Shown here: piece after piece, positions 16,062 through 40,781 of the stretch | How positions within the stretch are numbered: the first letter of the stretch is position 1 | How the letters are laid out: every line of letters begins with the position of its first letter | NCBI RefSeq assembly: GCF_013106755.1 | Contig: NZ_WHPF01000001.1 | Coordinates: 310,001-374,000 of the forward strand | Reading direction: 5' to 3' | Length of the DNA: 64,000 nt | From: Limnovirga soli | GTDB lineage: Bacteria; Bacteroidota; Bacteroidia; Chitinophagales; Chitinophagaceae | Notes under the pieces: model-generated | What the model was told of the DNA's origin: nothing | The model's input: only the letters and a program-made list of their open reading frames with translations | The model's database searches: none | Program-made: the position numbers and the translations under genes

Positions 16062-16065
16062 GACC

Positions 16066-23015: not shown

Positions 23016-23795
23016 CTAATTAAATTCTATCGTACCAAAACTTTTGTAATCGTGGTAATTGCTTTGTGTTAGTTGCCAGCTGCTGTAAGCCGGGTTTTTA
23101 TCGTAATCTATGCGGTAAAAATTTGCCCGCCATTGGGTACCTTTTTTGGGGGGCACATTATTCATGGGGCCTAACAAAGCAAAAGGTATAAACAGCTCGG
23201 CTGTCCAGCTAATTCTGCCGCTGGTATTTGCATTTTTATTGATGTGAATGGCATGTATAATTTTTCGTCCATCGTTGTACTGCCAGGGTTTCCAACCCAT
23301 GATATTGCCTTTGTTATTGAGTATTAAAATGGGCAACTCGTAATTCAAGGGAGATAACTCATACTCCAGATACAATGGCATAGCAGAATCGGGCCAAAAG
23401 AAAGCTTCTACCACATCTTCATCATACAGGTTGGCATAATCCTCAGTAAGCGTGGCGGTAATGGCACTATCCTCGCACTGGTATAAACAGTAAATCCCTT
23501 TATCGGAATACATAATTTTAAACTGGGTACTATAATGCAAAAGATTGCGTGCTTTATCGGCGGGAATATTCCATTTATTTTGTTGCAGCAGGCTGGTATT
23601 TCTTTCGGTAATAGTTTGCCAGCCGGTATTATTCCAATTATTGCTGCTGCCATCTCCGGTGAAGGTAAAATCGGTGGTTTTGCCCACTTTTAAAATATGG
23701 CCGCTATTATTAATTTGTGCATTTGCCAGTGCTGTAATAATTAATGCCGCTAATACTATTATCCCTCTTGCTTTGTAATTCCTGTTTGTACACAT
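23016..23795 (-). CDS. Exported CBM9-like carbohydrate-binding protein
   Basis: 259 residues from the ATG at 23795 (MCTNRNYKARGIIVLAALIITALANAQ), a Sec leader. A longer frame to 23882 overlaps the upstream gene and lacks a leader at its start. The body (GDGSSNNWNNTGWQTIT, FKIMYSDKGIYCLYQCEDSA, DEDVVEAFFWPDS, YELPILILNNKGNIMGW, FIPFALLG, WRANFYRIDY) matches the CBM9-like domain often found as a stand-alone secreted protein in Bacteroidota. It probably binds a carbohydrate in the periplasm. It is the last gene of the long minus-strand cluster, 13 bases after 23809. Confidence 0.75.
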   Translation of the reverse strand: MCTNRNYKARGIIVLAALIITALANAQINNSGHILKVGKTTDFTFTGDGSSNNWNNTGWQTITERNTSLLQQNKWNIPADKARNLLHYSTQFKIMYSDKGIYCLYQCEDSAITATLTEDYANLYDEDVVEAFFWPDSAMPLYLEYELSPLNYELPILILNNKGNIMGWKPWQYNDGRKIIHAIHINKNANTSGRISWTAELFIPFALLGPMNNVPPKKGTQWRANFYRIDYDKNPAYSSWQLTQSNYHDYKSFGTIEFN

Positions 23796-23808
23796 AATGA
23801 TGTTGCTT

Positions 23809-24234
23809 TTATAATTTATATCCCTGCCTGGCCAGTAAAACCCATTTGCTTTTTTGTTTGGTAAATACCAGTAATGCCCCAATTTTTAGCTCACCGGGGG
23901 TACCGTTATTGGTAATTTTTGCTGAAAAAATATGTCTTACAATAGCTTCTTTTCCGGCAATGGTTATTTGCAGCGCCGATACGTCGATACTTAACATATC
24001 CAGCGGGCCATGCAAAACGGTTTGTATAAAAGTGGCTTTATCCTCTGATTTGCCATTAGAATGGCCATAACTTAATTGGGCGGCGGTAAGGTTTACCAAT
24101 GCTGCAGAATCAGCATCTACAATGGCTTTATTAAACATTGTTACAGCAGTAGTAACTGCCTGCTCCTCTTTGGATTGTGCCATTGTGCCCATACACAGCA
24201 ATACACAAGCTGCCAACAACAAATTTTTTTTCAT
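23809..24234 (-). CDS. Exported NTF2-like (DUF4440/SnoaL-type) protein
   Basis: 141 residues with a Sec signal peptide (MKKNLLLAACVLLCMGTMAQ). The mature part is a single NTF2-like domain: VTTAVTMFNKAIVDADSAALVNLTAAQLSYGHSNG, then IRHIFSAKI-type strands and the ending WVLLARQGYKL. These small cone-shaped proteins are ligand-binding or enzymatic, and here it would act in the periplasm. It is transcribed with its neighbours, 13 bases before the CBM9-like gene. Function cannot be named. Confidence 0.75.
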   Translation of the reverse strand: MKKNLLLAACVLLCMGTMAQSKEEQAVTTAVTMFNKAIVDADSAALVNLTAAQLSYGHSNGKSEDKATFIQTVLHGPLDMLSIDVSALQITIAGKEAIVRHIFSAKITNNGTPGELKIGALLVFTKQKSKWVLLARQGYKL

Positions 24235-24263
24235 GTATGCAAGTTATTTTAAATGCTCATTAA

Positions 24264-25346
24264 TTATGCTTCTGTCAGTTCATCCTCAACCGGTTTGCGA
24301 TGCCAGTACGATGCCAATACCGAACCTGTAATATTCATTAGCGGACCAAATATAGCAGGCGCCAAACCAACTGTGGCCATTTTACCCATTGCTTTTGCCA
24401 GCCCCGATGCCAGACCGCCATTTTGCATACCTACTTCAATGGCAATAGTACGGCAATCGCGTTCTTTCATTTTAAATAATCTTCCGCTCCAATATCCCAA
24501 TGTATACCCGCATAAATTATGTATTAATACCACCAGTATTAAAGCAGGGCCAATGGTTAAAAGGCTTTCCCTGCCTGCGGCAGTAATAATTACAATAATA
24601 AAAGCTATACCAAACATAGATACCAGCGGCATGGCATTATCTAACCATTTTAATTTGCCATGCAAAAAATGATTAAATACCAGTCCTGCTCCAATTGGTA
24701 TAATCACCATTTTAAAAATATCAAACATCATATCTATCGTATGTATTTCTACAAATGCACCGGCCAATAGTTTCATTAACATGGGCGTAATAAATGGGGC
24801 CAGCATGGTAGAAACAGCCGTTATAGTAACAGACAATGCCAGATTGGCTTTAGCCAGATAAGAAATTACATTAGAGGCCATACCATTGGGCGAGCAACCA
24901 ATAAGAATAATACCAGCCGCAATCTCGGGTGGAAAATTGGTGGCGCTTGCCAACGTAAAACCCAGCAATGGCATAATTACAAAATGACTAAACACGCCTA
25001 TAAAAACACCCTTGGGCATTTTAACCACCCCAGCAAAATCCTTAAAGCTCATGGAAGTGCCCATGCCAAACATAATCAATTGTATTAAGGGCGTAATTAG
25101 GGTAGCCAGTTTAAACCCATCCCATTCTACAAAAAATTGCGGGTACAATAAGGCAGACGTTACCGCTGCAAAAATGGTAGTGGTATAGGCAAATCCTTTC
25201 AGTGCAACATATCCACGAAAACCTATAGCGAGTGCTATAAAAAATGCCACCAATAAAGGGCCGGCAACAACAGTGTTACCCATTAAGAAAAATACCAGTG
25301 CTGCCAACAAACAAACACCTGCAACCGTTAGCGAAATTTTATACAT
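24264..25346 (-). CDS. Bile acid:sodium symporter (BASS) family transporter
   Basis: 360 residues with about ten hydrophobic helices. Family marks are IMFGMGTSMSFKDFAGV, the crossing-helix motif IGCSPNGMASNVISYLAKANLALSVTITAVSTMLAPFITP and ending IEVGMQNGGLASGLAKAMGK. BASS proteins take up organic acids (bile acids, pyruvate, 2-keto acids, pantoate) with sodium. In this cluster of exported catabolic enzymes, the likely role is uptake of a keto-acid or sugar-acid product across the inner membrane, which is inference. It lies between the NTF2-like gene and the RraA-like gene, with spacings of 29 and 58 bases. Confidence 0.88.
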   Translation of the reverse strand: MYKISLTVAGVCLLAALVFFLMGNTVVAGPLLVAFFIALAIGFRGYVALKGFAYTTTIFAAVTSALLYPQFFVEWDGFKLATLITPLIQLIMFGMGTSMSFKDFAGVVKMPKGVFIGVFSHFVIMPLLGFTLASATNFPPEIAAGIILIGCSPNGMASNVISYLAKANLALSVTITAVSTMLAPFITPMLMKLLAGAFVEIHTIDMMFDIFKMVIIPIGAGLVFNHFLHGKLKWLDNAMPLVSMFGIAFIIVIITAAGRESLLTIGPALILVVLIHNLCGYTLGYWSGRLFKMKERDCRTIAIEVGMQNGGLASGLAKAMGKMATVGLAPAIFGPLMNITGSVLASYWHRKPVEDELTEA

Positions 25347-25404
25347 AATCCAATAATAAAGTTGATCAAAAAAAATAGGTTACCACCCAAATGCGATGCT
25401 GCTT

Positions 25405-26337: not shown

Positions 26338-26386
26338 TTAGTATTTAATTTTTATGAGCCAAACATGATATTGCTATCTGGCTTTA

Positions 26387-26436: not shown

Positions 26437-27348
26437 TTAGAATTGCTTAAATTCTCTGCCCGGTTTTTCTACCCTAAAAGTTTCAATATTACAACTATCC
26501 TGCAAAGTAATATAGGCTGTTTTGCCATCGGTACCACCAAATGCAATATTGCTGGGCTTTGAACCCTTTAAAGTAATTTCCGTAAGCAATTTACCCTGGG
26601 GCGATACTTTGGCCACCGTGCCTTTGCCATGTCTTGTAATGTACAAATTACCATCAATATCGCAGCGCATACCATCCATACCAAAATCAGGAAATTCTAT
26701 CAGCAATTGTTTATTGCTAATGGTACCACTGTCAGATAAATCATATACCCAAACCTTGCGTTGTACAGATTCGTTTACATATAATTTTTTTCCATCAGGA
26801 CTTACTTCAATACCATTGGTAGTGCCCATGCTATCTTCCAGCAATAATATTTGTCCGTTGGTATCTACCCGCCAAATTTGTCCGGAGTTATTTTTCCAGT
26901 TTGGGTCGCTGGCATAGAGGCGGTCTTTGCTATCTATGGCAATATCATTGGGTTGGTTCATGGCAGCATTATGGGCATACACACTAATTTCTTTGGTAGC
27001 CATATTTACCTGCAGAATATTATGATTGGTATAATCTGCAATCATCATTAAACCCTTGCTGTTAAACCGTATACCATTGCCAATACTTCCATTGGGCAAT
27101 TCCACAAAAATACTGCTGTCGCCGGATGGTGTTACAATACCAATGGTACCTTCATGTGCATAGTTTACTGCATATAAGTTTCCTGCACTATCAACAGCAG
27201 GGCCTTCGGCACCGGTGGTAAATGTATTTACTGCTGTAAAATCAGCAGCTGTGTATAATTCGTTGGTCATGCTTTTTGGTTCAGTTGTGTTACAGGCCCA
27301 ACATGCGCCTGATACTATTAAACAAAATAAGAAGCGTTGTACTTTCAT
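26437..27348 (-). CDS. SMP-30/gluconolactonase-like lipoprotein
   Basis: 303 residues from the ATG at 27348 (MKVQRFLFCLIVSGACWAC), with a lipobox SGAC or CWAC, so the mature protein is a lipoprotein. A longer frame to 27477 has no leader and runs into a repeat copy. The six-bladed propeller shows EGPAVDSAGNLYAVNY, IGNGIRFNSKGLMMIADYTNHNI, NQPNDIAIDSKDRLYASDP, TNGIEVSPDGKKLYVNES and DGMRCDIDGNLYITRHG, containing the Asn/Asp/Glu metal ligands of SMP-30 lactonases. Such enzymes hydrolyse aldonolactones. In the cluster it is a natural partner for the sugar dehydrogenase/cytochrome c proteins, whose direct product would be a lactone. Confidence 0.88.
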   Translation of the reverse strand: MKVQRFLFCLIVSGACWACNTTEPKSMTNELYTAADFTAVNTFTTGAEGPAVDSAGNLYAVNYAHEGTIGIVTPSGDSSIFVELPNGSIGNGIRFNSKGLMMIADYTNHNILQVNMATKEISVYAHNAAMNQPNDIAIDSKDRLYASDPNWKNNSGQIWRVDTNGQILLLEDSMGTTNGIEVSPDGKKLYVNESVQRKVWVYDLSDSGTISNKQLLIEFPDFGMDGMRCDIDGNLYITRHGKGTVAKVSPQGKLLTEITLKGSKPSNIAFGGTDGKTAYITLQDSCNIETFRVEKPGREFKQF

Positions 27349-27483: not shown

Positions 27484-28743
27484 CTATTTGGTTTTTGGCT
27501 TTGGATAAATGGGGTTGGCAATACCATTAAGATCGTACACAATTTTGCCGCCCTTGATCGTCATGGCACATTCAAATTTTTGTTTTCCATCCACCTTATA
27601 ACCGGTTTTATCGTAAAAGCCAAAATTACCCTGACGCAAATCCAATATGGCTACATCGGCAATACCCCCAGGGGAAAGATTACCCAGCTCTTCGTGTTTT
27701 ATTACTTGTGCGGGGGCCCAGGTGCTGGCTTTTATTACATCTTTTAAAGGCATACCCATTAACAGAAATTTAGACATCACATCTATCTGGCTTTTCATTG
27801 AGGCATTCATGCTGCCGGTATGCAAATCGGTACTTATGGTGTTGGGGAAAAATCCCTGCTGCAATGCGGGAATAGCCTGCGAAAAATTAAAGCTGGCGCC
27901 GCCATAGCCAACGTCGAAAATAATACCACGTTTTATGGCATCCCAAATAAAGGGTTTTACCTTACTTGTTTTTTCATCAACCACTGTTTCCCGTACATTG
28001 CCATCAAGCAGCGTATATGTGTGGGTATAAATATCACCGGGCCTCAGGTGTTTCATAAATAATTCTTCAATAGATAAAGGTGGGTTATTACCGCCAAAGT
28101 CAATCATAACAGGCATGTTGGCCTGTTTGCCTGCTTCCACGGCGCGGTCAACAGGCGTCCATTCCGGACCGTTAAAATGTGCTACCTTAAAGCCTACAAC
28201 TATGTCTTTATTTTGTTTGGCTACAATAGCACTCATCTTGGCATCCATATCATTTTCGTTCTGCTCATATGCTCCGCCACGCATGCCTTCGCCAACAATA
28301 TTTAATAATGCCAATACCCTTGTTTGCGAATTATCTATAATATTCTTTTTAAACGTAGGGAAAGATTTCCAACCGGCACCACCTGCATCTACCACGGTAG
28401 TAACACCCACCCTGAAAGTAAAACCATCGGGCACTATTGCTACCAGTCCATTACTTAAATAATGATCGGGCTCGGTACCAAAAAATACATGCGCATGCAG
28501 GTCAATTAAACCCGGCGTTACATATAAGCCTTTGGCATCTACAGTTTGTGCCGCCTGTTTACCATCAATATTGGCGGCTACCTGAACAATTTTTCCATCG
28601 GCAATGGCTACATCCATCACTGCATCAATATTATTTTTAGCGTCTATAACATGGCCGCCTTTAATTACAATATCGTATAACTGCCCCATGGCGGTGTTCC
28701 CCAAAAAAATAACTGCCAATAATAAACCGTATACTTTTTTCAT
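27484..28743 (-). CDS. Exported amidohydrolase/deacetylase-like protein, paralogue 1 (metal-site His replaced by Tyr)
   Basis: 419 residues with Sec leader MKKVYGLLLAVIFLGNTAMG. It belongs to the amidohydrolase (dihydroorotase/deacetylase, EF_0837/Atu3266-like) family: HxH at 83 and 85 (LIDLHAHVFFG), the bridging-lysine region VVGFKVAHFNG, THTYT, and the Asp in TISTDLHTGSMN. At the position where its two paralogues have FDVGHGG, it has FDVGYGG (Tyr 280), so one probable metal ligand is changed. Family members in other bacteria are typically adjacent to SelA/DgaE-like PLP enzymes, as here. It may deacylate an acyl-amino substrate, or act with altered metal content. It follows the PLP gene by 44 bases. 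Confidence 0.87.
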   Translation of the reverse strand: MKKVYGLLLAVIFLGNTAMGQLYDIVIKGGHVIDAKNNIDAVMDVAIADGKIVQVAANIDGKQAAQTVDAKGLYVTPGLIDLHAHVFFGTEPDHYLSNGLVAIVPDGFTFRVGVTTVVDAGGAGWKSFPTFKKNIIDNSQTRVLALLNIVGEGMRGGAYEQNENDMDAKMSAIVAKQNKDIVVGFKVAHFNGPEWTPVDRAVEAGKQANMPVMIDFGGNNPPLSIEELFMKHLRPGDIYTHTYTLLDGNVRETVVDEKTSKVKPFIWDAIKRGIIFDVGYGGASFNFSQAIPALQQGFFPNTISTDLHTGSMNASMKSQIDVMSKFLLMGMPLKDVIKASTWAPAQVIKHEELGNLSPGGIADVAILDLRQGNFGFYDKTGYKVDGKQKFECAMTIKGGKIVYDLNGIANPIYPKPKTK

Positions 28744-28787: not shown

Positions 28788-30008
28788 TTATACAGCAGCC
28801 TGTAACAGTTCTTCTTTAATTCTTTTTGCTACCACTACTTCCTGCCCGGGCTTTAACATAAATACAGTAATCCTGATGCTATTCTCTGTTTCCCAGGCAA
28901 TTGTTTCAATAGAAGGGCTACCCTTTCGCAGCTTTTCGCCCATGGCATCACGGGTAATTTTAACTATAGCCGGGTTCCAGGAAATGATGAGAGATGGATT
29001 GTGGTTGGCAACAGCTGGTATCGTTACTTCAGTAGTAACACCGGCAATATTGGCAAGTGTATTTTTAATATAGGCAATACGGTCTTCCCACATTTTCCAT
29101 TCTTTGGTATGATCTCTTTTTACATAGCTGTCTAAAGCCACATACATGCCAATTATCTCTTCTTTATTCACTTTCATGCCACGGCCAATATTACCGCCCT
29201 TGGGTGGCGCACTAAGCCTTGCAGCTGCTATTAAATCTTTTTTACCCATTAATATACCGGCACTTTGCGGACCACAAATGGCTTTGCCGCCAGATATACA
29301 AACCAGATCAAAACCCATATCGTTATACTTCCATAAATTCTCCACCGGTGGCACATCGGCAGCCATATCAATCATGGTAGGCAGTTTATGTTGTTTAGCC
29401 AGCTCCAGCCATTCGCGGTGTTGAATTTTACCCATGGGTGCTTCCCTGTTTAAAAACCAAAGCATCGCAGTTTTATCGTTAATGGCCGCAATGGCTTCTT
29501 CCATGGTTTCTACGGTAACAATGGTAACACCTGTATTGGTTAAAGCATGGTCGTACCCGTTTATATGGCTCTTTTGAATAATCACTTCCGATTTCATACC
29601 AGTGCCTTCCAACTTAGGCAATTGGGCTACTTTTTTTTGATCCATTCCGGTAAGTACACCTGCCATACCTAATACCAATGCCGACCAGCAACCGGCTGTT
29701 ACAAAAGCCGCTTCGGCATGGCAAATAGCAGCAATTTTTTCCCCTACCTTATCCTGCACTTCTTCCAGCATTACATATTCTTTAGCCGTGCTGTTAATAG
29801 CTTCCATTACTTCATCCGGCATCAGCGATGCTGTCATAGATGTATAATTACCCGCAGCATTTATAAAAGTGCGCAGCCCCAGTTCTGCAAACAAATCTCT
29901 TTTTACAGTGGTGGCAGCCACCGCTGCAGAAGAAGGCAGTACACTACCCAACGCACCACCTGCAAACGGCAGCAGCGATAATCCTTTTAATACATTTCTG
30001 CGTTTCAT
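28788..30008 (-). CDS. Tat-exported SelA/DgaE-like PLP enzyme, paralogue 1
   Basis: 406 residues with a twin-arginine-like leader (MKRRNVLKGLSLLPFAGGALG). It is a fold-type I PLP enzyme of the SelA/D-glucosaminate-6-phosphate ammonia-lyase (DgaE) type: LFAELGLRTFINAAGNYTSMTASLMPDEV, AEAAFVTAGCWSALVLGMAG, the cofactor Asp in MIDMAADVP, and Lys 242 in SGGKAICGPQSAG for the Schiff base. It is closest to the paralogue at 39041. Enzymes of this type eliminate ammonia from 2-amino sugar acids or transfer groups onto 2-aminoacrylyl intermediates. Export of a PLP enzyme is rare, and Tat transport of a folded, cofactor-loaded protein would explain the leader. Reaction and substrate are inferred. Confidence 0.88.
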   Translation of the reverse strand: MKRRNVLKGLSLLPFAGGALGSVLPSSAAVAATTVKRDLFAELGLRTFINAAGNYTSMTASLMPDEVMEAINSTAKEYVMLEEVQDKVGEKIAAICHAEAAFVTAGCWSALVLGMAGVLTGMDQKKVAQLPKLEGTGMKSEVIIQKSHINGYDHALTNTGVTIVTVETMEEAIAAINDKTAMLWFLNREAPMGKIQHREWLELAKQHKLPTMIDMAADVPPVENLWKYNDMGFDLVCISGGKAICGPQSAGILMGKKDLIAAARLSAPPKGGNIGRGMKVNKEEIIGMYVALDSYVKRDHTKEWKMWEDRIAYIKNTLANIAGVTTEVTIPAVANHNPSLIISWNPAIVKITRDAMGEKLRKGSPSIETIAWETENSIRITVFMLKPGQEVVVAKRIKEELLQAAV

Positions 30009-30178: not shown

Positions 30179-30212
30179 ACCACTCACCACTCACCACTCA
30201 CTACTCACTACT
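30179..30212. repeat. Heptamer tandem repeat at the stop of the dehydrogenase gene
   Basis: Four to five units of CCACTCA, then CTACTCA, ending at the TAG stop codon (30208-30210) of the gene at 30208. Copy number changes would not alter the protein except at its extreme end. Confidence 0.75.
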
Positions 30213-31959
30213 TCCCCCTCACCTTCTTCACTTCCCCAACAGTAATAACATCGGTATTATTATTAAAATGCTGTCTTATATAATTCAATACCTGCGCTAT
30301 ATCTTCATCACGTAAAAAACTGTGTTGAGGCATCAGGTTATTATAAGGTTTGCCTTTAACAGTAATGGGAATATTCAACCCATTTAATACTACATCAATC
30401 AATTTTTGCTTATCACCATTTACCCATTCAGAACTATCCAACGGGGGAAACCGGTTACCGTCGCCATGACCATTATGCTGGTGACAGGATATGCAATACG
30501 TATTGTATACCTGTGCGCCAGGAATGGCTTTGTCTTTATACAAATTATCGGCAACTTCATCCGGTGTGCGGATATTGGCATTTAATTTTCTTTGCTCCAT
30601 TGCCGCTAGTTGTTCTTTGCCAAAATTGCCTTTATCACCTTTGTACATAATGCGCCAAATTTTTCCTTTTTTTGAGTCTGACACATACAAAGAACCATCT
30701 GGCCCTTCGGCAAGGCCCATTGGCCTGTATTGCGCATCATCGGTATTTACAATGGTATCTACTCCGGCAAAACCATCGGCAAACACCTCCCATTCACCGG
30801 AGGGTGCTCCATTTACAAAAGGTACAAAACAAACAAAATAACCTGCCTGCGGGTAAGGCGATCTGTTGGTAGAGCCATGAAATGCTATAAAAGCACCATG
30901 TTTATAATGTTCAGGAAATTGGTCACCTTCATAAAACAGTAAATCATTGGGTGCCCAGTGCGCCGGAAAACCCATTACCGGCATTTGAACGCTACTATCT
31001 TTGGCTGGCATTTTACCATCGCCACCATATTCGGGTGCCTGTATATTTTTGTGTTGTATCTGGTCGTAATAACTATAGGGCCAGCCAAAATTATTGCCTT
31101 CCTCTACCTTTAAAAATTCTTCTGAAGGCAACACTGCACTTTGCCAGGGCGTAAACTTATCGGGCCATAATAAATGCAGGTCATCTCGGCCATGCATAAC
31201 TGCGTATAAATTTTTGGTTTCTTTATTCCAGGCCATAGCAACTACGCTTCTTATACCTGTAGCAAATTTTTTTCCATCCTTTTGGGTAAGGCCTGTTTTA
31301 TTTACATCAAACTGCCAAATGCCGGCATGGTTTTCTAATTCGGGACAGGGATTCAACCCGGCAAAACCGGGTGTACCACCCGGGGTTCTTACCAAATCCT
31401 GGCAGGCATTGCTTGGTGCCCCAAAAGGAACATACATATGGCCATTATCATCAAAAGCGACAGGTTTGGTAATATGCCAGTGCGAGCCCCGGTTATCATC
31501 CTCAGTAAGTATGGTATCCATTTTTGATTCGGGAATTAGTTTGCCTGGTGTTAACTTGTTTCTATACACCACCAGCTCCGAAGCAAAATATAAATAGCCA
31601 TCGTGTATGCGCATGCAATTGGCCAAACTACCTTCATTATAATAATCACCAAAGTATACAATTGAATCGGCCCTGCCATCGTTATTGGTGTCCCGCAAAG
31701 CTACATTACCGCCTTCCCCTTTTTTGGAATAGCGCAGCTTTACATAAATATCTCCATTGTTGTTTATGGCTAAATGGCGTGCCGGACCAATACTATCTGC
31801 TACCACCACTGCTTCAAAATTACCGGGCAAAAAAAGACCACCATTATCTGCATCGCCCTTTGGCAGCGGGTTGCCAGTATTACACTGCGCCAAAACAAAT
31901 AACAACAGGCATAAAATTGCACTGAGCTTTTGTAATGATAAATGATGCCTGTAATACAT
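30208..31959 (-). CDS. Sorbosone-dehydrogenase-like propeller with C-terminal cytochrome c, lipoprotein, paralogue 1
   Basis: 583 residues beginning with a lipoprotein leader (LCLLLFVLAQCNTGN). Residues about 40-450 form the glucose/sorbosone dehydrogenase-type propeller (RHLAINNNGDIYVKLRYS, VALRDTNNDGRAD, YGGDGKMP, FGWPYSYYD, MGLAEGPDGSLYVSDSKKGKIWRI). A class I cytochrome c follows, with CISCH at 489-493 and probable axial Met 543 (NNLMPQHSF). The family uses PQQ or a similar quinone, and electrons would leave through the fused haem. It oxidises aldehyde or sugar substrates in the periplasm. It is very similar to 37060-38838. Next to amidohydrolases, PLP enzymes and the lactonase, it probably provides the oxidation step. 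Quinone use is inferred from the family. Confidence 0.9.
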   Translation of the reverse strand: MYYRHHLSLQKLSAILCLLLFVLAQCNTGNPLPKGDADNGGLFLPGNFEAVVVADSIGPARHLAINNNGDIYVKLRYSKKGEGGNVALRDTNNDGRADSIVYFGDYYNEGSLANCMRIHDGYLYFASELVVYRNKLTPGKLIPESKMDTILTEDDNRGSHWHITKPVAFDDNGHMYVPFGAPSNACQDLVRTPGGTPGFAGLNPCPELENHAGIWQFDVNKTGLTQKDGKKFATGIRSVVAMAWNKETKNLYAVMHGRDDLHLLWPDKFTPWQSAVLPSEEFLKVEEGNNFGWPYSYYDQIQHKNIQAPEYGGDGKMPAKDSSVQMPVMGFPAHWAPNDLLFYEGDQFPEHYKHGAFIAFHGSTNRSPYPQAGYFVCFVPFVNGAPSGEWEVFADGFAGVDTIVNTDDAQYRPMGLAEGPDGSLYVSDSKKGKIWRIMYKGDKGNFGKEQLAAMEQRKLNANIRTPDEVADNLYKDKAIPGAQVYNTYCISCHQHNGHGDGNRFPPLDSSEWVNGDKQKLIDVVLNGLNIPITVKGKPYNNLMPQHSFLRDEDIAQVLNYIRQHFNNNTDVITVGEVKKVRGK

Positions 31960-33352: not shown

Positions 33353-34638
33353 TTTTTATTTTTCATTTCAACTTCCCATCCCGGTGCACTGAGTCCATTT
33401 AAATCCCAAACAATTTTACCGGCGCGTATGGTTAATTCGGCTTCCAGTTTTTGCGTGCCTTTCAAAACAGTTTTACGAATATCCAAAAATCCAAAATTGC
33501 CTTTTCGCACATTAAATACCGTAACATCAGCATCGGCACCAACGCTTAAATTACCCAGATCGGGGCGCTTTATTACATTGGCGGGGTTCCAGGTAGCACG
33601 CAGAATTACATCGGGTAAACTCATGCCCATATTCAGGAATTTAGACATTACATTGCTCATGTCTTTCATACCGCTATTCATACTTTCTGCATGTAAATCT
33701 GTGCTTATTACATTGGGCTTAAAACCTTGCTGCATGGCAGGTATAGCCTGCCGCCACGAAAATGCGCCACCACCATGACCCACATCAAAAACAATTCCCC
33801 GCTGTTGGGCAGCAAATACAAAAGGTTTTACTTTTCCGCTATCATCCACAATGGTTTCGCGTACTGTGGGGCCATAGGAAAATGTGTGGGTAAAAATATC
33901 TCCCGGCCGCAGGCGCTGCATAAACAAGGCCTCAATAGAATTGGGTGGCTGGTGCTCACCAAAATCAACCATCACAGGCACATTTGCCATGTTACCCGCC
34001 TGCACCGCACGGTCAACCTGCGTAAAACCACCCCAGTAATGGGCGGCTTTTATACCTACAATAATATCGGGAAATAATTTCTTTATCATGTAGGCCGTTT
34101 GCTGCGGGTTCATATCGGCGGTATCCTGTTCCTCAAACCTGCCTACCATACCATTACCTACAATATTCAGCAAAGCCAACACACGGGTTTGAGATTTATC
34201 TATGGTTTGCTCTTTAAACTTTCTAAAATTGCGCCAGCCCGATGAACCTGCATCAACCACCGTTGTTACACCTGCCCTAAAGGTAAAACCATCCGGCGGC
34301 AAACTCGTGGGCGCATTTGCGATGTAAGCATTCAAATCCTTGCCATCAAAAACATGTACATGCATATCAATAATGCCGGGTGTAACAATCAAACCGCTTA
34401 CATCAATCACCTGCTTAACATTAGTAACGGGAATATCTTTTGCCACCTGCCATATTTTGCCATTCATAATGGCTATATCCATTTCGGTATCTATCTTATT
34501 TTTAGGGTCAATTACATGGCCTCCTTTTAACAAAATATCAATTTGTTGTGCATGCCCAGTAAAAAAAAACAATACTCCCAGTAAAAAGCAAATGGCTTTT
34601 GCAGCGTTTCTGTTCAACCTTTTTACATTGTACAACAT
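33349..34638 (-). CDS. Exported amidohydrolase/deacetylase-like protein, paralogue 3
   Basis: 429 residues with a Sec leader (AAKAICFLLGVLFFFTGHAQ) and the same motifs as its relatives: IIDMHVHVFDG, IVGIKAAHYWGGFT, THTFSYGP, FDVGHGGGAFSW and ISTDLHAESMNSG. The metal site is complete. It is upstream of paralogue 2 with a 4-base stop/start overlap. Relatives are zinc-dependent hydrolases of acylated amino acids or amino sugars. Three paralogues in 7 kb suggest several acyl or sugar variants are processed. Confidence 0.87.
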   Translation of the reverse strand: MLYNVKRLNRNAAKAICFLLGVLFFFTGHAQQIDILLKGGHVIDPKNKIDTEMDIAIMNGKIWQVAKDIPVTNVKQVIDVSGLIVTPGIIDMHVHVFDGKDLNAYIANAPTSLPPDGFTFRAGVTTVVDAGSSGWRNFRKFKEQTIDKSQTRVLALLNIVGNGMVGRFEEQDTADMNPQQTAYMIKKLFPDIIVGIKAAHYWGGFTQVDRAVQAGNMANVPVMVDFGEHQPPNSIEALFMQRLRPGDIFTHTFSYGPTVRETIVDDSGKVKPFVFAAQQRGIVFDVGHGGGAFSWRQAIPAMQQGFKPNVISTDLHAESMNSGMKDMSNVMSKFLNMGMSLPDVILRATWNPANVIKRPDLGNLSVGADADVTVFNVRKGNFGFLDIRKTVLKGTQKLEAELTIRAGKIVWDLNGLSAPGWEVEMKNKK

Positions 34639-34733: not shown

Positions 34734-36368
34734 TTAAGTGGCCAATGGCGGACCGCCGGGCACAACAATTTCCTGTGGTTTTATTTTAAAGCCGCTGCGT
34801 TTCGCGGTAAAAGTTGCGGTACGGTATTCGCCCAAATATACCGAGCCTGCAAATGCATCATTGGCCACCGTACCTGAAAAAGTAAACGTAATGGCATCTG
34901 CCGGATGACGGTCAACACTGCGTAATTTAATTTCGTTGCCTTCTATTGTTCCGGTAAGTTCACGGGTAGAGAACTCACCTTTATGAGAACCTTTTATCCA
35001 TTTGCCATCCTGCTGTATAAACAACATATGCTGGCTGGTACTGCTAAAGAATTGTATACTCAAATCCCAGCTACCAGCAAGATTTGCCGATGGCTGTACA
35101 GTAGCAGCTTTTTTAGGTGACCGCTTTTGGGTAAGCACACCAAAAACCCTGTCAGCCACCACTTTTTCATTCCCCGGCTGCATTTGCCCGGTGGTAATAT
35201 TGATAAATGTTTTACCGTCTTTATTATCGCTGCCTATAGCTACCCTGGGTTTATTTCTACCCAGCTCTTCTGCCATTTCATCCCCGGTAATATTGAATTT
35301 TGCCGGATCCCAGGAAACATTTAATACCGGAGACCTGTTAGACAATTCAGTAGGTTCAAAAACCGATGTGGAAACCCCTTCGATAGAAGAAAGCTTTTTT
35401 GCAATTACATCCAGCCAGGAAAGCCAGGTTTTCCATTCTGCGGCATGGTCGCGTTTGGTCCATGCTTCCACCGCTGCCAACATGCCCATCATTTCTTCAC
35501 GCCCAACTTTATTATCGCGGCCCGGCCCGTGGTGTGGTGAGCTGGCCTGCCAGGCAGACATGAGTATATCTTTTCTTCCCAATACCAAACCGGCGCATTG
35601 GGGACCACAAATAGCTTTGCCACCACTGTAAACCACTACATCAGCACCACGTTGTAAATGAATATTGGGAATGGTAAGTACTTCGGCAGCTGCATCTACC
35701 AGTATGGGTACTTTATGGGGTTTTGCAATTGCAGCAACATTTTCCAAAGAAAGCGGTTGCCCCGGTTGCGATTCATCATAAGCCATAATGTATATCATGG
35801 CGGTTCTTTCATTTAGGGCACTTTTCAATTCTTCCGGACTGTTTACTTCAATTATTCTGGCGCCTATATTACGAATAGCATGATCGTATACATTACGCGA
35901 TGTTTTGGGGATAATTACTTCGGTTTTATCAAAACCTGTAAGGTCTGGAATACGAATTAATTTTTCGGGGTTGCCGCCGGTAATGCAGGCAGCCGTTACG
36001 TGCTTCATACCGGCAGCACAACCAGATGACACCATGCCCCATTCTGCACCCGTAATCTCTGATAAACGCTTGCCAATACCATCAGCCAGTTCATCGTATT
36101 GTACAAAATCTTTGGAGGCGGCTTCCATAGCGGCACGCACTTCGGGGCGTTCTATGGAGCCACCGATGATGGTAAAAGTGCCCCTGCAATTAATAATCGG
36201 CTCCACTCCTATCGACTGAAATATATTGGGCCCTATAGCCAGCTCACCTGCAACGGAAAGCTGCTGTAGGTTATCCACCGCCGGCGCTGCAAAAAGCGAT
36301 TTAAGGGGAGCCAGTGTTCCGGCCAATGGTAACAGGGTAATACCTTTTAAAATATGTCTGCGTTTCAT
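34734..36368 (-). CDS. Tat-exported SelA/DgaE-like PLP enzyme fused to a lipocalin-like domain, paralogue 2
   Basis: 544 residues from the ATG at 36368 (MKRRHILKGITLLPLAG), a twin-arginine-like leader. A longer frame to 36455 runs into a diverged repeat. Residues about 45-410 are the PLP domain (FQSIGVEPIINCRGTFTIIGGSIERPEV, GAEWGMVSSGCAAGMKH, LVDAAAEV, Schiff-base Lys 251 in SGGKAICGPQCAG). From residue 427 a beta-rich domain follows (SANLAGSWDLSIQFFS, MLFIQQDGKWIKGS, YLGEYRTATFTAKR), of the kind appended to exported amidohydrolases. It is the most diverged of the three PLP paralogues. It lies downstream of a RidA gene. Function is probably elimination on an amino-group substrate. Confidence 0.87.
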   Translation of the reverse strand: MKRRHILKGITLLPLAGTLAPLKSLFAAPAVDNLQQLSVAGELAIGPNIFQSIGVEPIINCRGTFTIIGGSIERPEVRAAMEAASKDFVQYDELADGIGKRLSEITGAEWGMVSSGCAAGMKHVTAACITGGNPEKLIRIPDLTGFDKTEVIIPKTSRNVYDHAIRNIGARIIEVNSPEELKSALNERTAMIYIMAYDESQPGQPLSLENVAAIAKPHKVPILVDAAAEVLTIPNIHLQRGADVVVYSGGKAICGPQCAGLVLGRKDILMSAWQASSPHHGPGRDNKVGREEMMGMLAAVEAWTKRDHAAEWKTWLSWLDVIAKKLSSIEGVSTSVFEPTELSNRSPVLNVSWDPAKFNITGDEMAEELGRNKPRVAIGSDNKDGKTFINITTGQMQPGNEKVVADRVFGVLTQKRSPKKAATVQPSANLAGSWDLSIQFFSSTSQHMLFIQQDGKWIKGSHKGEFSTRELTGTIEGNEIKLRSVDRHPADAITFTFSGTVANDAFAGSVYLGEYRTATFTAKRSGFKIKPQEIVVPGGPPLAT

Positions 36369-36514: not shown

Positions 36515-37048
36515 TTATTCTTTTAATTCTACAATCATTTCTATTTCTACAGCGATATTATTGGGCAAGGAACCCATGCCTACAGCCGAACGGGCATGTT
36601 TACCATTCTCGCCAAATACCTGCACCAACAAATCGGAACAACCGTTGATTACTTTGGGGTGCTGCTCGAAAGTTGGGATGGCATTTACCATACCCAAAAC
36701 TTTTACAATGCGTTTTACTTTGTTCAAATCGCCCACTTCGGCTTTAAGTGTAGACAGCAGGGAAATAGCTGTTAACCTGGCTGCATCCCTTGCCTGTTCC
36801 AGCGTAAGATCGCTACCCACTTTTCCGGTAACCAGACCACCTTCTGGTTTATCGGGACCATGACCGGAGAGATACACCATATTACCCACCCGAACCGCTT
36901 TTACATAATTGGCAATGGGCGGTGTAGGCGTTATAAGTTGTATACCCAATTCTTTTATCCTTGCTTCGGGGTTTACATTGGTTTGCTGTGCCTGGCAAAT
37001 ACCACTGGCAAGCAACAAAAAACTAATGCAACTGATGATTGCTTTCAT
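36515..37048 (-). CDS. Exported RidA/YjgF-family protein 1 (Sec leader)
   Basis: 177 residues with a Sec signal peptide (MKAIISCISFLLLASGICQA). The rest is a RidA fold: VRVGNMVYLSGHGPDKPEGG, LTLEQARDAARLTAISLLSTLKAEVGD, LGMVNAIPTF and the active-site Arg in HARSAVGMGSLPNNIAVEIEMIVEL. RidA enzymes hydrolyse 2-aminoacrylate-type enamines and imines released by PLP-dependent eliminations. It sits directly upstream of the PLP enzyme at 34734 and downstream of the dehydrogenase/cytochrome gene (11 bases), so the partnership is expected. RidA in the periplasm is unusual. Confidence 0.9.
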   Translation of the reverse strand: MKAIISCISFLLLASGICQAQQTNVNPEARIKELGIQLITPTPPIANYVKAVRVGNMVYLSGHGPDKPEGGLVTGKVGSDLTLEQARDAARLTAISLLSTLKAEVGDLNKVKRIVKVLGMVNAIPTFEQHPKVINGCSDLLVQVFGENGKHARSAVGMGSLPNNIAVEIEMIVELKE

Positions 37049-37059: not shown

Positions 37060-38838
37060 TTATTTTTTTTGAGCGCTGATTTTAGTTCTTAATGCTGCTA
37101 CTTCTTCCTCGTTAATTTCGGTGGCATTGTTGCCAAAATTTTGCCGTACGTAGGTTAATACCAGGGCCAGATCTTTATCAGTTAAAAAACTATGGCTGGG
37201 CATTAGGTTATTAAATTGTTTGCCTTTTACTGTAATGGGTTGTTGCAAACCATTTAGTAAAATATTGATGAGGCGGGTTTTGTCGCCCAATACATATTCG
37301 GAACTATCCAATGGTGGAAAACGGCTACCGTCGCCCTTGCCATTGCTTAAATGGCAAACGCCGCAATAGGTACTATAAATTTCCGCCCCACCCGTTAGCT
37401 TTGTTTTTTGCAGGTTATCGGCTACTTCATCGGGGTTTTTAATGTGGGCACTGGTAGTTTTAAGTTTTTCCATTGCTGCCAGTTGAGGTGCGCCAAAATT
37501 AGCGGTATAGCCTTTGTAAATTATGCGCCAAATTTTACCCTTACGAGAATCACTGATGTACAAAGAACCATCGGGGCCCTGTGCCAAACCCATAGGGCGG
37601 CAAGCTGCGTCTGTGGTATTCAGAATGGTATCCATGCCGGCAAAGCCATCTGCAAATACTTCCCATGGGCCGCTGGGCTTACCATCTTTAAAGGGTACAA
37701 AAGCTACAAAATAGCCCGACTGAGAATACGGCGCCCTAATGGTAGAACCATGAAAAGCGATAAAAGCTCCATTTTTGTAATGTGCCGGAAACATGTTGCC
37801 TGTATAAAACAAAATATCGTTGGGGGCCCAATGGCCAGGAAAACCAATAAGTGGCTGTTCGTATTTACTGCCATTGCCTTCCTTTTTTCCATCGCCGCCA
37901 TATTCGGGGTTTAGCAGTTTTTTGCCTTGCATCCAATCGTAATAATAATACGGCCAGCCAGCATCTGCACCTTCTTTTATATGCAAAAATTCTTCTGCAG
38001 GCAATAATGCACTTTGCCATTTGGTATACATGCCGGGCCATGTTCTATGCATTTCGTCGCGGCCATGTTGTACAATATAAATATCCTTATCCTGAGGGTT
38101 CCAGGTAATGGCTACAGCACTTCTTATACCAGTGGCATAGCGTTTACCATCTTTTATGGTTTGATTGGTTTTATCGGGATTAAATTGCCAGATACCTGCA
38201 TGCTCTGCCAGTTGCGGACATGGGTCCTGCCCCGGAGATTCGGGTATTCGGTCTAACTGCTGGCATACATCAGATGGTGAACCAAAAGGCACATACATAT
38301 TGCCCTTATCGTCAAACGTGATAGGCTTTGCGGTGTGGTTATAGCCATGCGGGTCGTTCTGGTAATCATCGTGCAGAATAAGTTCGCTATTTTTTTCGGG
38401 CAGCAGTTCGCCTGGTATCAGCTTGGTGCGAAATACATCCCCGGTGGAGCTATAATACAAGTAGCCATTGTATATGCGCATGGCAGTACCATAGCCCATA
38501 GAATCGGTATAAACCCCAAACTTTTTAATAACATCGGCCTTTCCATCGCCATTTTCATCGCGTAAAGCCACGTTACTGCCATCGGCATAAGAGCCACGTA
38601 GTTTTACATAAATATCGCCATTGGAATTTACGGCCAGATGCCTTGCAGCGCCAACACTATCGGCCACTACCAATCCTTCAAAACCGCCGGGCAGCGTAAG
38701 TCCGCCATTATCAGCATCGCCTTTAAGCTGCCCTGGTTTGCACTGCGAAAATAAAATAGCCAATGCGCCTGTAAAAAGGGCAACAAAAAATGTAGATGTT
38801 GTGTATCGTTTGTAAGCAACGATTCTTTGATTCACCAT
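37060..38838 (-). CDS. Sorbosone-dehydrogenase-like propeller with C-terminal cytochrome c, paralogue 2
   Basis: 592 residues from the ATG at 38838 (MVNQRIVAYKRYTTSTFFVALFT, then LAILFSQC). The longer frame to 39087 runs through two repeat copies. The propeller (ARHLAVNSNGDIYVKLRGSYADG, GRDEMHRTWPGMYTKW, DAGWPYYYYDW) and cytochrome c (CGVCH at 492-496, Met 546 in NNLMPSHSF) match paralogue 1 throughout. It is probably a PQQ-type dehydrogenase delivering electrons to the respiratory chain. It is upstream of RidA 1 by 11 bases, and so most likely co-transcribed. Confidence 0.9.
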   Translation of the reverse strand: MVNQRIVAYKRYTTSTFFVALFTGALAILFSQCKPGQLKGDADNGGLTLPGGFEGLVVADSVGAARHLAVNSNGDIYVKLRGSYADGSNVALRDENGDGKADVIKKFGVYTDSMGYGTAMRIYNGYLYYSSTGDVFRTKLIPGELLPEKNSELILHDDYQNDPHGYNHTAKPITFDDKGNMYVPFGSPSDVCQQLDRIPESPGQDPCPQLAEHAGIWQFNPDKTNQTIKDGKRYATGIRSAVAITWNPQDKDIYIVQHGRDEMHRTWPGMYTKWQSALLPAEEFLHIKEGADAGWPYYYYDWMQGKKLLNPEYGGDGKKEGNGSKYEQPLIGFPGHWAPNDILFYTGNMFPAHYKNGAFIAFHGSTIRAPYSQSGYFVAFVPFKDGKPSGPWEVFADGFAGMDTILNTTDAACRPMGLAQGPDGSLYISDSRKGKIWRIIYKGYTANFGAPQLAAMEKLKTTSAHIKNPDEVADNLQKTKLTGGAEIYSTYCGVCHLSNGKGDGSRFPPLDSSEYVLGDKTRLINILLNGLQQPITVKGKQFNNLMPSHSFLTDKDLALVLTYVRQNFGNNATEINEEEVAALRTKISAQKK

Positions 38839-38916
38839 TTCAGCAAAATATATACAGTTAAATAATAGGGGTATTGAATAGATATGAACCCGGCTGCCGT
38901 AATACATTTCAACATC

Positions 38917-38937
38917 CGTTGCGTCGCACTCTTGTAC
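38917..38937 (-). repeat. Intergenic repeat, core type A with GTTG
   Basis: CGTTGCGTCGCACTCTTGTA plus C, flanked by ACCCGGCTGCC at 38888. It faces the type B copy at 38985. Confidence 0.85.
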
Positions 38938-38984
38938 GGCAACAAGCATGGCATCAAACAAAATATGCTGCCCTATAGGCGAAC

Positions 38985-39005
38985 GTACAAGTGAGTGACA
39001 CAACG
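38985..39005 (+). repeat. Intergenic repeat, core type B
   Basis: GTACAAGTGAGTGACACAAC plus G, then GATGCCGGG. It is the second half of an inverted pair with 38917. Confidence 0.88.
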
Positions 39006-39040
39006 GATGCCGGGTAATGTACAACTGCCGGCAATAAAAA

Positions 39041-40258
39041 CTAGGCTGTTGCTGCAGCCAATTCTTCTGATAACCTTTTGGCAACAATTCTTTCCTGCCC
39101 CGGCAGCATTACCCATGTAGTGATGCTGATGTGCTCATCGCCACCATTTACGATTTCTATGGATGGGCTGCCGTTGCGCAATTTTTCCTGCAGGTCTTTG
39201 GTAGTTAGTTTTAGTTTGGTTTTATCCCAGGTTACATGCAAGGTAGGCGTTACATTGCCCAGCGTGGGCACTTTTACCTCTGTAGTAAGGCCGGGAATAT
39301 TTTTGATAGCCGTTTGGATAGTGGCTACACGGCCTTCCCATTCTTTCCATTCTTTTTCATGATCGGCATTGACAAAATGTTCCAGTGCCACATACATGCC
39401 CAATACTTCTTCTTTGTTCACCTTCATACCGCGTCCAATGGTGGTACCACGTGGCGGCATGCTTAAACGGGCTGCAGCAATCAACTCTTTTTTACCCATG
39501 AGAATGCCTGTGCTTTGTGGGCCACGCATGGCTTTGCCGCCAGACACACAAACAAGATCGAAACCCATATCGTTAAACTTCCACAGGTTTTCTACGGGGG
39601 GTACATCCGCAGCAATATCTATCATAGTGGGGATTTTATATTTTTTACCCAGTGCTACCCATTGTTCGTGGTTGATTAAGCCTTTATCGGATTGCACATT
39701 TAAAAACCAGAGCAGGGCAGTTTTATCGCTGATGGCTTTTTCTACATCGCTAATGGTTTCTACGGTTACTATAGTGCAACCAGTATTGGTAAGTGCATGA
39801 GAATAACCAATGCTATGGCCTTTTTGAATAATCACTTCTGATTTCATGCCGGTGCCGGCGAGATGCGGTAATTGTTCTACTTTGGTTTGATCCATACCGG
39901 TGAGCACACCGGCCAGTCCCAATGTAAGTGCTGAAAAACACCCGGAAGTAATAACGGCAGATTCAGCATGTACCATGGTGGCAATTTTGGCGCCTACTTT
40001 ATCCTGTAGTTCATCCAGCAGGCAAAAATCGTGGGTGGCAGAGCGGATGGCTTCTACTACTTCTTCGCGCATTAGGGAGCCCGTCATAAATGTATAAGTA
40101 CCGGCAGCATTAATAAATGTGCGAACGCCCAGCTCTTTAAACAAGTCTCGTTTAACAGCAGGCACCGGCGCTGCGGCAGCATCGGTGGATATAAATGCGC
40201 CTGCTGCACCAGCTACCGGCAGTAAGGATAAATTTTTGAGTAGGTCTCTTCTTCTCAT
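39041..40258 (-). CDS. Tat-exported SelA/DgaE-like PLP enzyme, paralogue 3
   Basis: 405 residues with a twin-arginine-like leader (MRRRDLLKNLSLLPVAGAAG). It is closely similar to paralogue 1 (28788): LFKELGVRTFINAAGTYTFMTGSLMREEV, AESAVITSGCFSALTLGLAG, MIDIAADVPPVENLWKFNDMGFDLV, and Schiff-base Lys 242 in SGGKAMRGPQSTG, which falls at the same residue number. It is downstream of a RidA gene by 58 bases, pointing to one PLP-RidA unit. Probably an ammonia-eliminating enzyme of the periplasm. Confidence 0.88.
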   Translation of the reverse strand: MRRRDLLKNLSLLPVAGAAGAFISTDAAAAPVPAVKRDLFKELGVRTFINAAGTYTFMTGSLMREEVVEAIRSATHDFCLLDELQDKVGAKIATMVHAESAVITSGCFSALTLGLAGVLTGMDQTKVEQLPHLAGTGMKSEVIIQKGHSIGYSHALTNTGCTIVTVETISDVEKAISDKTALLWFLNVQSDKGLINHEQWVALGKKYKIPTMIDIAADVPPVENLWKFNDMGFDLVCVSGGKAMRGPQSTGILMGKKELIAAARLSMPPRGTTIGRGMKVNKEEVLGMYVALEHFVNADHEKEWKEWEGRVATIQTAIKNIPGLTTEVKVPTLGNVTPTLHVTWDKTKLKLTTKDLQEKLRNGSPSIEIVNGGDEHISITTWVMLPGQERIVAKRLSEELAAATA

Positions 40259-40316
40259 ATGTGTTAATTTGGAACTAAGTGATGAACAGATAATGCGTAC
40301 AATACCATTTTACTAT

Positions 40317-40781
40317 TTAAGAGATGTAAGCAATACAATCCATTTCTACCAGTGAATCGCCAGGCACGCCTCCTTTTGCTACGGCTACTGTAGTACGTAC
40401 AGGTGGTTTTTTACCAAAGCGGCCTTTGAATACCTCGTTCATTCCTTTGTAATCTTTAATATCGTCGAGATACACATTTACTTTTAGTACTTTATCCATT
40501 GAAGAGCCGGCGGCTATCAGTTCTTTTTCCAGTTCTTTTAACACATGATCGGTATGGGAAGTGATATCGCCTACAAAGTGTGCGCCTTTACCAGCAATAA
40601 AAACCATATTGCCTAAAATGGTGTGACCGGAGAAGAGAGGAATATCCTGGTCGTAAACTACATTATGCGCTTCTTTTTCGTCAGTTGTATGGCTGGCAGC
40701 TTTGGCAGCAAAACCTAAACCGGTAGTGGCTACAATGGAGCCAAATAATTTCTTGATCAATGATCGGCGCTTTTCCTGCAT
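40317..40781 (-). CDS. Exported RidA-family protein 2 (twin-arginine-like leader)
   Basis: 154 residues with a leader of the Tat type (EKRRSLIKKLFGSIVATTGLGFAAKA). The RidA fold follows: IPLFSGHTILGNMVFIAGKG, HTDHVLKELEKELIAAGSSMDKVLKVNVYLDDI and PPVRTTVAVAKGGVPGDSLVEMDCIAYIS, with the conserved active-site Arg. It is the first gene of the minus-strand cluster, followed by the PLP enzyme at 39041. Its role is presumably hydrolysis of the enamine/imine that this PLP enzyme releases. Both RidA and PLP enzymes have Tat-like leaders, which suggests the pair is exported folded. Confidence 0.88.
   Translation of the reverse strand: MQEKRRSLIKKLFGSIVATTGLGFAAKAASHTTDEKEAHNVVYDQDIPLFSGHTILGNMVFIAGKGAHFVGDITSHTDHVLKELEKELIAAGSSMDKVLKVNVYLDDIKDYKGMNEVFKGRFGKKPPVRTTVAVAKGGVPGDSLVEMDCIAYIS

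Follow-up and report, generated by a model that had tools for sequence, protein, structure and literature searches.

A candidate extracytoplasmic pathway for N-acetylhexosamine catabolism encoded by an exported gene set conserved in Bacteroidota

The 64,000-nucleotide window analysed here (positions 310001-374000 of contig C1 in the 5.48 Mb genome of Limnovirga soli) carries a cluster of 15 open genes, all on the minus strand between 23016 and 40781, which we think with moderate confidence encodes an extracytoplasmic pathway for an N-acetylhexosamine, i.e., N-acetylglucosamine (GlcNAc), N-acetylgalactosamine (GalNAc) or a similar sugar. The cluster specifies three pyridoxal 5'-phosphate (PLP) enzymes related to DgaE and SelA (PLP1, PLP2, and PLP3), three amidohydrolases (AH1, AH2, and AH3), two fusions of a quinoprotein sugar dehydrogenase to cytochrome c (PQQ1 and PQQ2), two Rid proteins (Rid1 and Rid2), a lactonase (SGL), an RraA-like protein, and a BASS transporter (Table 1). 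What has been computed is the gene set with its export signals and its conservation, the relationships between folds, the absence of a phosphate site, and the sugar-acid context; from these we infer the reactions, their order, the substrate, and the cargo of BASS. It is also possible, although we hold this with more doubt than conviction, that the whole catabolism is free of phosphorylation and takes place outside the inner membrane, with PLP lyases devoid of an enamine-quenching histidine passing their enamine to exported RidA and with only pyruvate or a keto acid, together with electrons, entering the cell.

In the proposed scheme the membrane-anchored PQQ1 and PQQ2 would oxidise the free sugar at C1 and deliver the electrons to haem, SGL would open the lactone to an N-acetyl-aldonate, and the exported AH1-3 would take off acetate to leave a 2-amino-2-deoxy-aldonate. 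The PLP enzymes, exported by the twin-arginine translocation (Tat) system, would then eliminate the C3 hydroxyl as water, and hydrolysis of the resulting enamine/imine, assisted by exported Rid, would give ammonia and a 2-keto-3-deoxy-aldonate. Finally, the exported RraA would split this keto acid into pyruvate and glyceraldehyde and BASS would import the pyruvate; alternatively, BASS would import the keto acid itself for the 2-keto-3-deoxygluconate (KDG) kinase and the 2-keto-3-deoxy-6-phosphogluconate (KDPG) aldolase of the cell. Having three paralogues each of the PLP enzyme and the amidohydrolase would allow sugars of different configuration to be handled. The scheme would thus employ, as exported proteins, enzymes of types that usually work within the cell. 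As the order of the AH, RraA, and BASS genes differs among loci, gene order was not used to derive the order of reactions.

An outline of this kind, with an amino-sugar acid as substrate, was already part of the initial annotation of the region, and it gains support from nearby GH20 genes, from a DGOK/KDPG aldolase/transporter group and from fusions of lactonase to Rid and of amidohydrolase to a YhcH-type anomerase (see below); the individual steps needed correction, and the reactions themselves are still proposals. The ammonia-releasing role of the PLP enzymes is retained, but by analogy with DgaE the direct elimination of ammonia is replaced by elimination of water to an enamine followed by hydrolysis. 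RraA, which had been left without a role, is most likely, judged by its sequence, an aldolase acting on a 2-keto-3-deoxy acid. It follows that BASS may carry pyruvate and not the intact keto acid, whose import had been proposed and is kept as the alternative.

Export and Conservation of the Gene Set

Gene families were assigned by hidden Markov model (HMM) search, and the initial description of fifteen same-strand genes of the named families, nearly all with Sec, Tat or lipoprotein leaders, is borne out by the open reading frame (ORF) coordinates, the HMM matches, and a scan of the leaders with a simple script, not a trained predictor. Twin-arginine leaders were found on PLP1, PLP2, PLP3, and Rid1, lipobox-like motifs on both dehydrogenases and SGL, and Sec-like hydrophobic leaders on all remaining soluble proteins of the cluster, while BASS sits in the membrane. 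The genome encodes TatC. The twin-arginine motif of the PLP enzymes is shared by their relatives: in an alignment of 132 distinct homologues, the three window enzymes included, 130 have Arg-Arg among the first 12 residues when the start is set at the Met just before the Arg pair. For the 129 homologues from outside the window, the pair is among the first 12 residues of the longest ORF in 96, and Met-(0-2 residues)-Arg-Arg occurs within the first 90 residues in 126.

The genome has four DgaE-like matches, of which the only three above 100 bits all lie in the cluster. Similarly, just three of 16 matches to the amidohydrolase family exceed the NF006689 cut-off, and these are AH1-3. This concentration, together with the recurrence of the set in other genomes, indicates that the cluster is more than a chance assembly. 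To count co-occurrence, loci were chosen by the PLP gene alone and neighbours were scored within 6 kb. A first count covered the 73 of 114 loci with a full-length PLP gene and 6 kb on either side, and found 65 with an amidohydrolase, 57 with a Rid protein, and 48 with a quinoprotein-type dehydrogenase; two of ten control families from the window were seen, in 2 loci each. The count was repeated with six more loci, when 77 of 120 were usable and single linkage on PLP identity left 72 at a 97% cut and 40 at an 80% cut. Of the 40, 38 had an amidohydrolase, 35 had Rid, 26 had a quinoprotein-type dehydrogenase, 15 had BASS, and 14 had RraA, compared with 2 for any of the ten control families, so the co-occurrence of PLP enzyme, RidA, and amidohydrolase, a search for which had been suggested as a check, is found across genomes. 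The core of PLP enzyme, amidohydrolase, and Rid, often with a dehydrogenase, stays together at 42-60% identity and across classes. One locus from another class of the phylum (L156) holds dehydrogenase, lactonase, PLP enzyme, amidohydrolase, Rid, RraA, BASS, and CBM9 genes in about 16 kb at 24-62% identity, with the dehydrogenase on the opposite strand.

The distribution of the PLP1 relatives is patchy. Of 244 genomes sampled from the family, 36 had one at E<=1e-3 (25 at E<=1e-30), and of 395 sampled across the phylum, 7 had one at E<=1e-60. When named genomes were scanned, the best 80 of 580 confirmed matches were kept, so that the counts describe the closest relatives; these gave 78 loci, including Dyadobacter, Larkinella, Spirosoma, Niastella, Cyclobacterium, and Fodinibius.

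The PLP Enzymes

The nearest solved relatives of the PLP enzymes by sequence are DGL/DgaE, then Cap15 and then SelA, with profile scores of 191 bits for DGL and 170 for Cap15. A structure model of PLP1 (mean predicted local distance difference test score 89) has DGL (7lc0) as its first match by E-value in the PDB and Cap15 (8t7j) as its second, and it also matches SelA; all three are fold-type I enzymes. A SelA or tRNA function is ruled out by the Tat leaders and the rank of the folds. The Schiff-base lysine (Lys242 of PLP1) is kept in all 132 homologues, and the position of the carboxylate-binding Arg226 of DGL is Lys or Arg in 128 of them and in each of the three window enzymes. In contrast, the phosphate site of DGL, described as three arginines (PMC9529869), is gone: at Arg301, Arg332, and Arg346 an Arg is left in 0, 2, and 0 of the 132 homologues (two have Lys at 301), and none in the window enzymes. 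A phosphorylated substrate as in DgaE is therefore ruled out.

The column of His163, the proton donor of DGL, likewise has no His in any of the 132 homologues and is a gap in 119. In DGL, the H163A enzyme keeps its turnover almost intact and apparently releases the free enamine, and its authors suggest that His163 guards against this toxic compound (PMC9529869). As a free enamine is the kind of compound that Rid proteins destroy, the Rid proteins become relevant to the loss of His163, and it is tempting to speculate that the exported Rid neighbours would take over its protective role. PLP2 has in addition a C-terminal stretch of about 130 residues without a Pfam match, which is conserved across eight aligned members of its subfamily.

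Amidohydrolases, Dehydrogenases, RraA, and Rid

All three amidohydrolases score above the NF006689/PRK09237 cut-off of 371 bits, and AH3 is homologous over near its full length to 8je0, Atu3266 (2ogj), and EF_0837 (2ics). In an alignment of 31 sequences H83, H85, H241, and D306 are invariant and K186 is nearly so. The PQQ1 model has the propeller of a quinoprotein sugar dehydrogenase, with best folds 6jt5 and 6i1q followed by 7cdy, 3a9g, 3das, and 2g8s, and resembles the AA12 pyranose dehydrogenase as well as aldose dehydrogenases from bacteria; a cytochrome c domain is attached. The haem site (C492, C495, and H496) is invariant in 23 aligned dehydrogenases. For PQQ1 and PQQ2, pyrroloquinoline quinone (PQQ) is the putative cofactor.

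In RraA, R177-D178 aligns with the Arg-Asp of the aldolase 3noj and is kept in 15 of 15 sequences, while the aspartate of an upstream GD is Ser in some homologues; the Arg-Asp pair is a motif of the active aldolases of the family. A function as RNase E regulator is unlikely, because the protein is exported and the Arg-Asp pair is kept. BASS is predicted to take up pyruvate or a 2-keto-3-deoxy acid. Both Rid proteins exceed their Pfam cut-offs.

Two kinds of gene fusion link the cluster to sugar acids. In two loci (L037:14248-16035 and L038:8082-9878) a homologue of AH3 with a leader is fused to DUF386 (YhcH/YjgK/YiaL) and adjoins RraA, and these fusion proteins would be periplasmic. The E. coli YhcH is described as cytoplasmic and as converting a cyclic 2-keto-3-deoxy acid to the open form that its aldolase uses (PMC8141875). 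In a third locus (L046:1449-3002) a PF10282 lactonase is fused to a YjgF/Rid domain homologous to Rid2.

Genomic Context and the Likely Substrate

Further indications come from genes built into related clusters. In two loci, L054 (genome G063) and L056 (G058), AH3 and SGL flank a GH20 beta-N-acetylhexosaminidase gene (300-312 bits) of the same orientation; both loci have a near-whole set and are among the closest outside the genus; the G063 cluster is split by opposite-strand genes between PQQ2 and PLP3. The best PDB match of the L054 protein is the Streptomyces hexosaminidase 1hp4 (518 bits). G063 and G058 have 4 and 5 GH20 matches, read as 3 and 4 genes as the gene in the cluster is split into two in each. 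At L112 a GH20 gene is found upstream of dehydrogenase, CBM9, PLP enzyme, and amidohydrolase.

On the product side, a DGOK kinase (PF05035, 175.6 bits), a KDPG/KHG aldolase, and a galactonate-type transporter of the major facilitator superfamily (best family TIGR00893) directly follow PLP enzyme and amidohydrolase at L106, and blast finds homologues of this trio in identical order at L110, L114, and L122. The four loci have neither RraA nor BASS within 6 kb, so the trio looks like their replacement. At L107 a PfkB kinase resembling KDG kinases adjoins BASS. A PF10282-type lactonase adjoins PLP1 in many Dyadobacter loci (family checked for L082), proteins of the PIG-L family occur near the PLP gene at L038 and L148, and acetate kinase follows the amidohydrolase at L095. 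Taken together, the embedded GH20 genes, the DGOK/aldolase trio, the PfkB kinase, the DUF386 and lactonase-Rid fusions, PIG-L, and acetate kinase suggest that the source is an N-acetylhexosamine and that a 2-keto-3-deoxy sugar acid is formed from it. In the window genome itself a KDPG-aldolase-like gene stands beside a KDG-kinase-like gene on another contig (C56), away from the cluster, and an imported keto acid could thus also be used in the cytoplasm.

Evidence Against the Proposed Pathway and Alternative Explanations

Several observations weigh against the N-acetylhexosamine pathway or parts of it. The PLP enzymes stay below the cut-offs of both DgaE-type family models, with best scores of 180.5 bits (TIGR01437, cut-off 385.3) and 153.3 bits, and the TM-scores of the PLP1 model are about equal for Cap15 (0.80/0.88) and DGL (0.79/0.86). 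The loss of His163 depends on the alignment, given the gap in most homologues: the neighbouring H162 column has His in 4 of the 132, and 37 have a His within four columns of H163, the window enzymes not among them. His154 of PLP1, kept in 105 of 132 homologues, might replace His163, and release of the enamine is no more than presumed. At the alignment position where 2ogj and 2ics have the first His following the Lys, AH3 has Asp215, AH1 an Asp, and AH2 a Glu, which leaves the metal-ligand set of COG3964 (HxH, Lys, His, His, and Asp) incomplete. Genome searches with PqqC and PqqE found no PQQ synthesis gene, although the control did not exceed the cut-off in either search, and no SusC/D gene is among the ORFs of the cluster.

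The context is also uneven. No more than 3 of 72 loci have GH20 in the neighbourhood of the PLP gene, one of these being L116, where the GH20 gene has the opposite orientation, and the 4 GH20 matches of the window genome all lie outside the cluster. A DGOK gene accompanies the PLP gene in 4 of 73 loci, and a single one of the 40 representatives left by the 80% cut has it, for which reason the trio was counted as about one event. RraA or BASS is present in 21 and lactonase in 16 of 73 loci, and 8 of 73 have no amidohydrolase within 6 kb (L102, L111, L117, L131, L136, L137, L036, and L069), where the PLP1-like enzyme possibly has another use. Finally, the window genome has NagA above its family cut-off, so that an ordinary GlcNAc route is probably present as well and the exported one would supplement it.

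The same genes could, with a small probability, serve the breakdown of N-acyl D-amino acids or beta-hydroxy-amino acids, where an amino acid released by the amidohydrolase would be dehydrated by the PLP enzyme, Rid would hydrolyse the enamine, and BASS would import pyruvate or another 2-keto acid; the quinoproteins and the lactonase would then belong to another function. Atu3266 of COG3964, which reportedly is weak on N-acetyl-D-serine and good on acetyl-(R)-mandelate, was counted in favour of this, a PanS-like BASS suits small keto acids, and OngC, a functional parallel discussed below, deaminates D-serine and D-threonine as well (PMC9537276). However, the lactonases, the aldose-type dehydrogenases, GH20, DGOK/KDPG aldolase, and the DUF386 fusion all indicate sugar acids.

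That no single pathway exists, and that unrelated exported functions in scavenging, detoxification or wall turnover merely share regulation, we regard as improbable. Gene order and content do vary, with RraA, BASS, lactonase, and GH20 each in a minority of loci, but the PLP enzyme-amidohydrolase-Rid core, often with dehydrogenase, is kept at great divergence and across classes, the two kinds of fusion tie its members to sugar-acid enzymes, and all the DgaE-like genes and same-family amidohydrolases of the genome are in one cluster. Very unlikely, finally, is that the PLP enzymes depend on oxygen like Cap15 and carry out a periplasmic oxidative deamination or decarboxylation of an amino or sugar acid, with Rid acting on the imine. 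Cap15 is second by E-value and in sequence and equals DGL in TM-score, and PvdN, which is exported, is described as an oxygen-using PLP enzyme. DGL is on the other hand somewhat closer by profile, and a 2-keto-3-deoxy product, whose formation needs dehydration and not oxidation, would agree with the DGOK/KDPG aldolase genes and with the DUF386 fusion. The exported N-acetylhexosamine pathway thus remains the reading we prefer.

Organisation of the Cluster and Neighbouring Genes

The genes are separated by -74 to 202 bases (Table 1). The starts of PQQ1 (38838), PLP2 (36368), and SGL (27348) were placed downstream of the longest-ORF starts, that of PQQ1 by its leader, and the true start of the CBM9-like protein is probably an internal ATG near 23795.

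Table 1. Genes of the cluster in order of transcription, all on the minus strand (-).
Gene	Coordinates	Product	Family match	Leader and remarks
Rid1	40317..40781	Exported RidA-type protein	PF01042 (best family), 68.1 bits, cut-off 27.3	QEKRRSLIKK; adjoins PLP gene in many related loci
PLP1	39041..40258	DgaE/SelA-like fold-type I PLP enzyme, predicted amino-sugar-acid ammonia-lyase	TIGR01437, 180.5 bits	Tat, MRRRDLLK
PQQ1	37060..38838	GSDH/quinoprotein sugar dehydrogenase-cytochrome c (CxxCH) fusion	PF07995 and PF00034	Lipobox FSQC
Rid2	36515..37048	Exported YjgF-like protein	PF14588 (best family), 66.6 bits, cut-off 35	
PLP2	34734..36368	DgaE/SelA-like PLP enzyme, second subfamily	TIGR01437, 162.9 bits	Tat, MKRRHILK
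AH1	33349..34638	Exported COG3964/PRK09237-type amidohydrolase, predicted deacetylase	NF006689, 455.4 bits	
AH2	32078..33352	Exported COG3964/PRK09237-type amidohydrolase	NF006689, 415.0 bits	
PQQ2	30208..31959	GSDH/quinoprotein dehydrogenase-cytochrome c fusion		Lipobox LAQC; 59% to PQQ1 (alignment)
PLP3	28788..30008	DgaE/SelA-like PLP enzyme	TIGR01437, 163.4 bits	Tat, MKRRNVLK; 62% identity to PLP1
AH3	27484..28743	Exported COG3964/PRK09237-type amidohydrolase	NF006689, 457.9 bits	Best match of the amidohydrolase in most related loci
SGL	26437..27348	Exported SMP-30/gluconolactonase-like lactonase	PF08450, 152.6 bits	Lipobox SGAC
RraA	25405..26337	RraA-like exported protein, predicted 2-keto-3-deoxy acid aldolase	PF03737, 63.6 bits	
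BASS	24264..25346	PanS-like transporter	PF01758, 141 bits; NF047939 (PanS), 241 bits, under cut-off 400	
DUF4440	23809..24234	DUF4440/SnoaL-like exported protein, accessory	PF14534	Within 6 kb of PLP gene in 4 of 72 loci
CBM9	23016..23882	CBM9-like exported protein, accessory	PF16011	Within 6 kb of PLP gene in 21 of 72 loci

Upstream of Rid1 a long intergenic stretch (40782-41238) shows, by eye, a strong hairpin with a run of eight T behind it on the minus strand, which is probably the terminator of the upstream RND-efflux-like genes at 41239-48231. Divergent from the cluster, at 21189-22672 (+), lie genes for an HbpS/GlcG-like small protein and a YghZ-type aldo-keto reductase (NF007388, over cut-off), which are rarely found with the cluster in other loci. 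Further away, the plus-strand genes at 11307-18307 look by eye like sugar-acid metabolism, i.e., an aldehyde dehydrogenase, a UxaA-like altronate/galactarate dehydratase, an FAH-family protein, and a FucP-like transporter.

Implications

If the proposed pathway is correct, a multi-step catabolism of amino sugars, including PLP chemistry and the control of a toxic enamine, runs outside the inner membrane, which would save ATP for phosphorylation and keep reactive intermediates and ammonia out of the cytoplasm. Functions would then be at hand for the exported DgaE-like, COG3964, Rid, and RraA proteins and the quinoprotein-cytochrome fusions of Bacteroidota, and it would be explained in general terms why periplasmic RidA and exported RraA occur there. 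Oxidative turnover of amino sugars would extend beyond the ong pathway, which is led by a lytic polysaccharide monooxygenase (LPMO), and a clue would be given to the need for its OngD protein. The comparison of DgaE, with His163, and the cluster enzymes, without it, would bear on why RidA is essential in such pathways.

Comparison with Known Systems

The PLP enzymes share with DGL/DgaE the fold, the Schiff-base lysine, a basic residue for the alpha-carboxylate, and the expected dehydration/deamination chemistry. They differ in being exported by Tat, in having neither the phosphate arginines nor His163, and in being paired with Rid, whereas DgaE acts intracellularly on a phosphorylated substrate. 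The amidohydrolases are of the EF_0837/Atu3266 type (COG3964; 2ics and 2ogj) by their NF006689 scores, but they are exported and have Asp or Glu in place of one predicted metal-ligand His. The EF_0837 gene has a DgaE-like gene and a gene for a KDPG-type aldolase as neighbours, which makes a comparable group of three. Cap15 (8t7j) has the fold and belongs to the sequence family of the cluster PLP enzymes; it is, however, an enzyme of antibiotic biosynthesis with another genome context, described as an oxygen- and PLP-dependent monooxygenase-decarboxylase (PMC7497351).

The closest parallel in logic is ong, the oxidative chitin utilisation pathway of Pseudoalteromonas prydzensis (PMC9537276). 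Common to ong and the proposed scheme are de-acetylation and the subsequent PLP-dependent deamination of an unphosphorylated amino-sugar acid to KDG. Deacetylase, PLP enzyme, and Rid genes occur together in most loci here. The RidA gene ongD is needed in vivo, a need that was left unexplained, and the cluster likewise has Rid genes. The ong system also has a GH20-type hexosaminidase, a family found near the PLP gene in 3 of our 72 loci and outside the cluster in the window genome, and TonB-type uptake. On the other hand, OngB and OngC are predicted to be cytoplasmic whereas the enzymes of the cluster carry export signals, and OngC is a fold-type III enzyme (PMC9537276) whereas PLP1-3 are of fold-type I. 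OngB is of a putative D-aminoacylase type, and PpOngB (9kb1) matches AH3 with only 23.5 bits. In ong an LPMO oxidises the polymer and KdgK is used; here quinoprotein and lactonase would oxidise the free sugar, and the cluster has RraA and BASS. Membership in the ong pathway is rejected as homology and retained as an analogy. To the initial statement that no pathway with such an exported arrangement was known, it has to be added that one of like logic, ong, has been described. No report of an exported glucosaminate-type pathway was found in the open-licence literature searched, and since ong is cytoplasmic and uses a non-homologous deaminase, we regard the cluster as a new, exported version of oxidative amino-sugar catabolism built from mostly different proteins.

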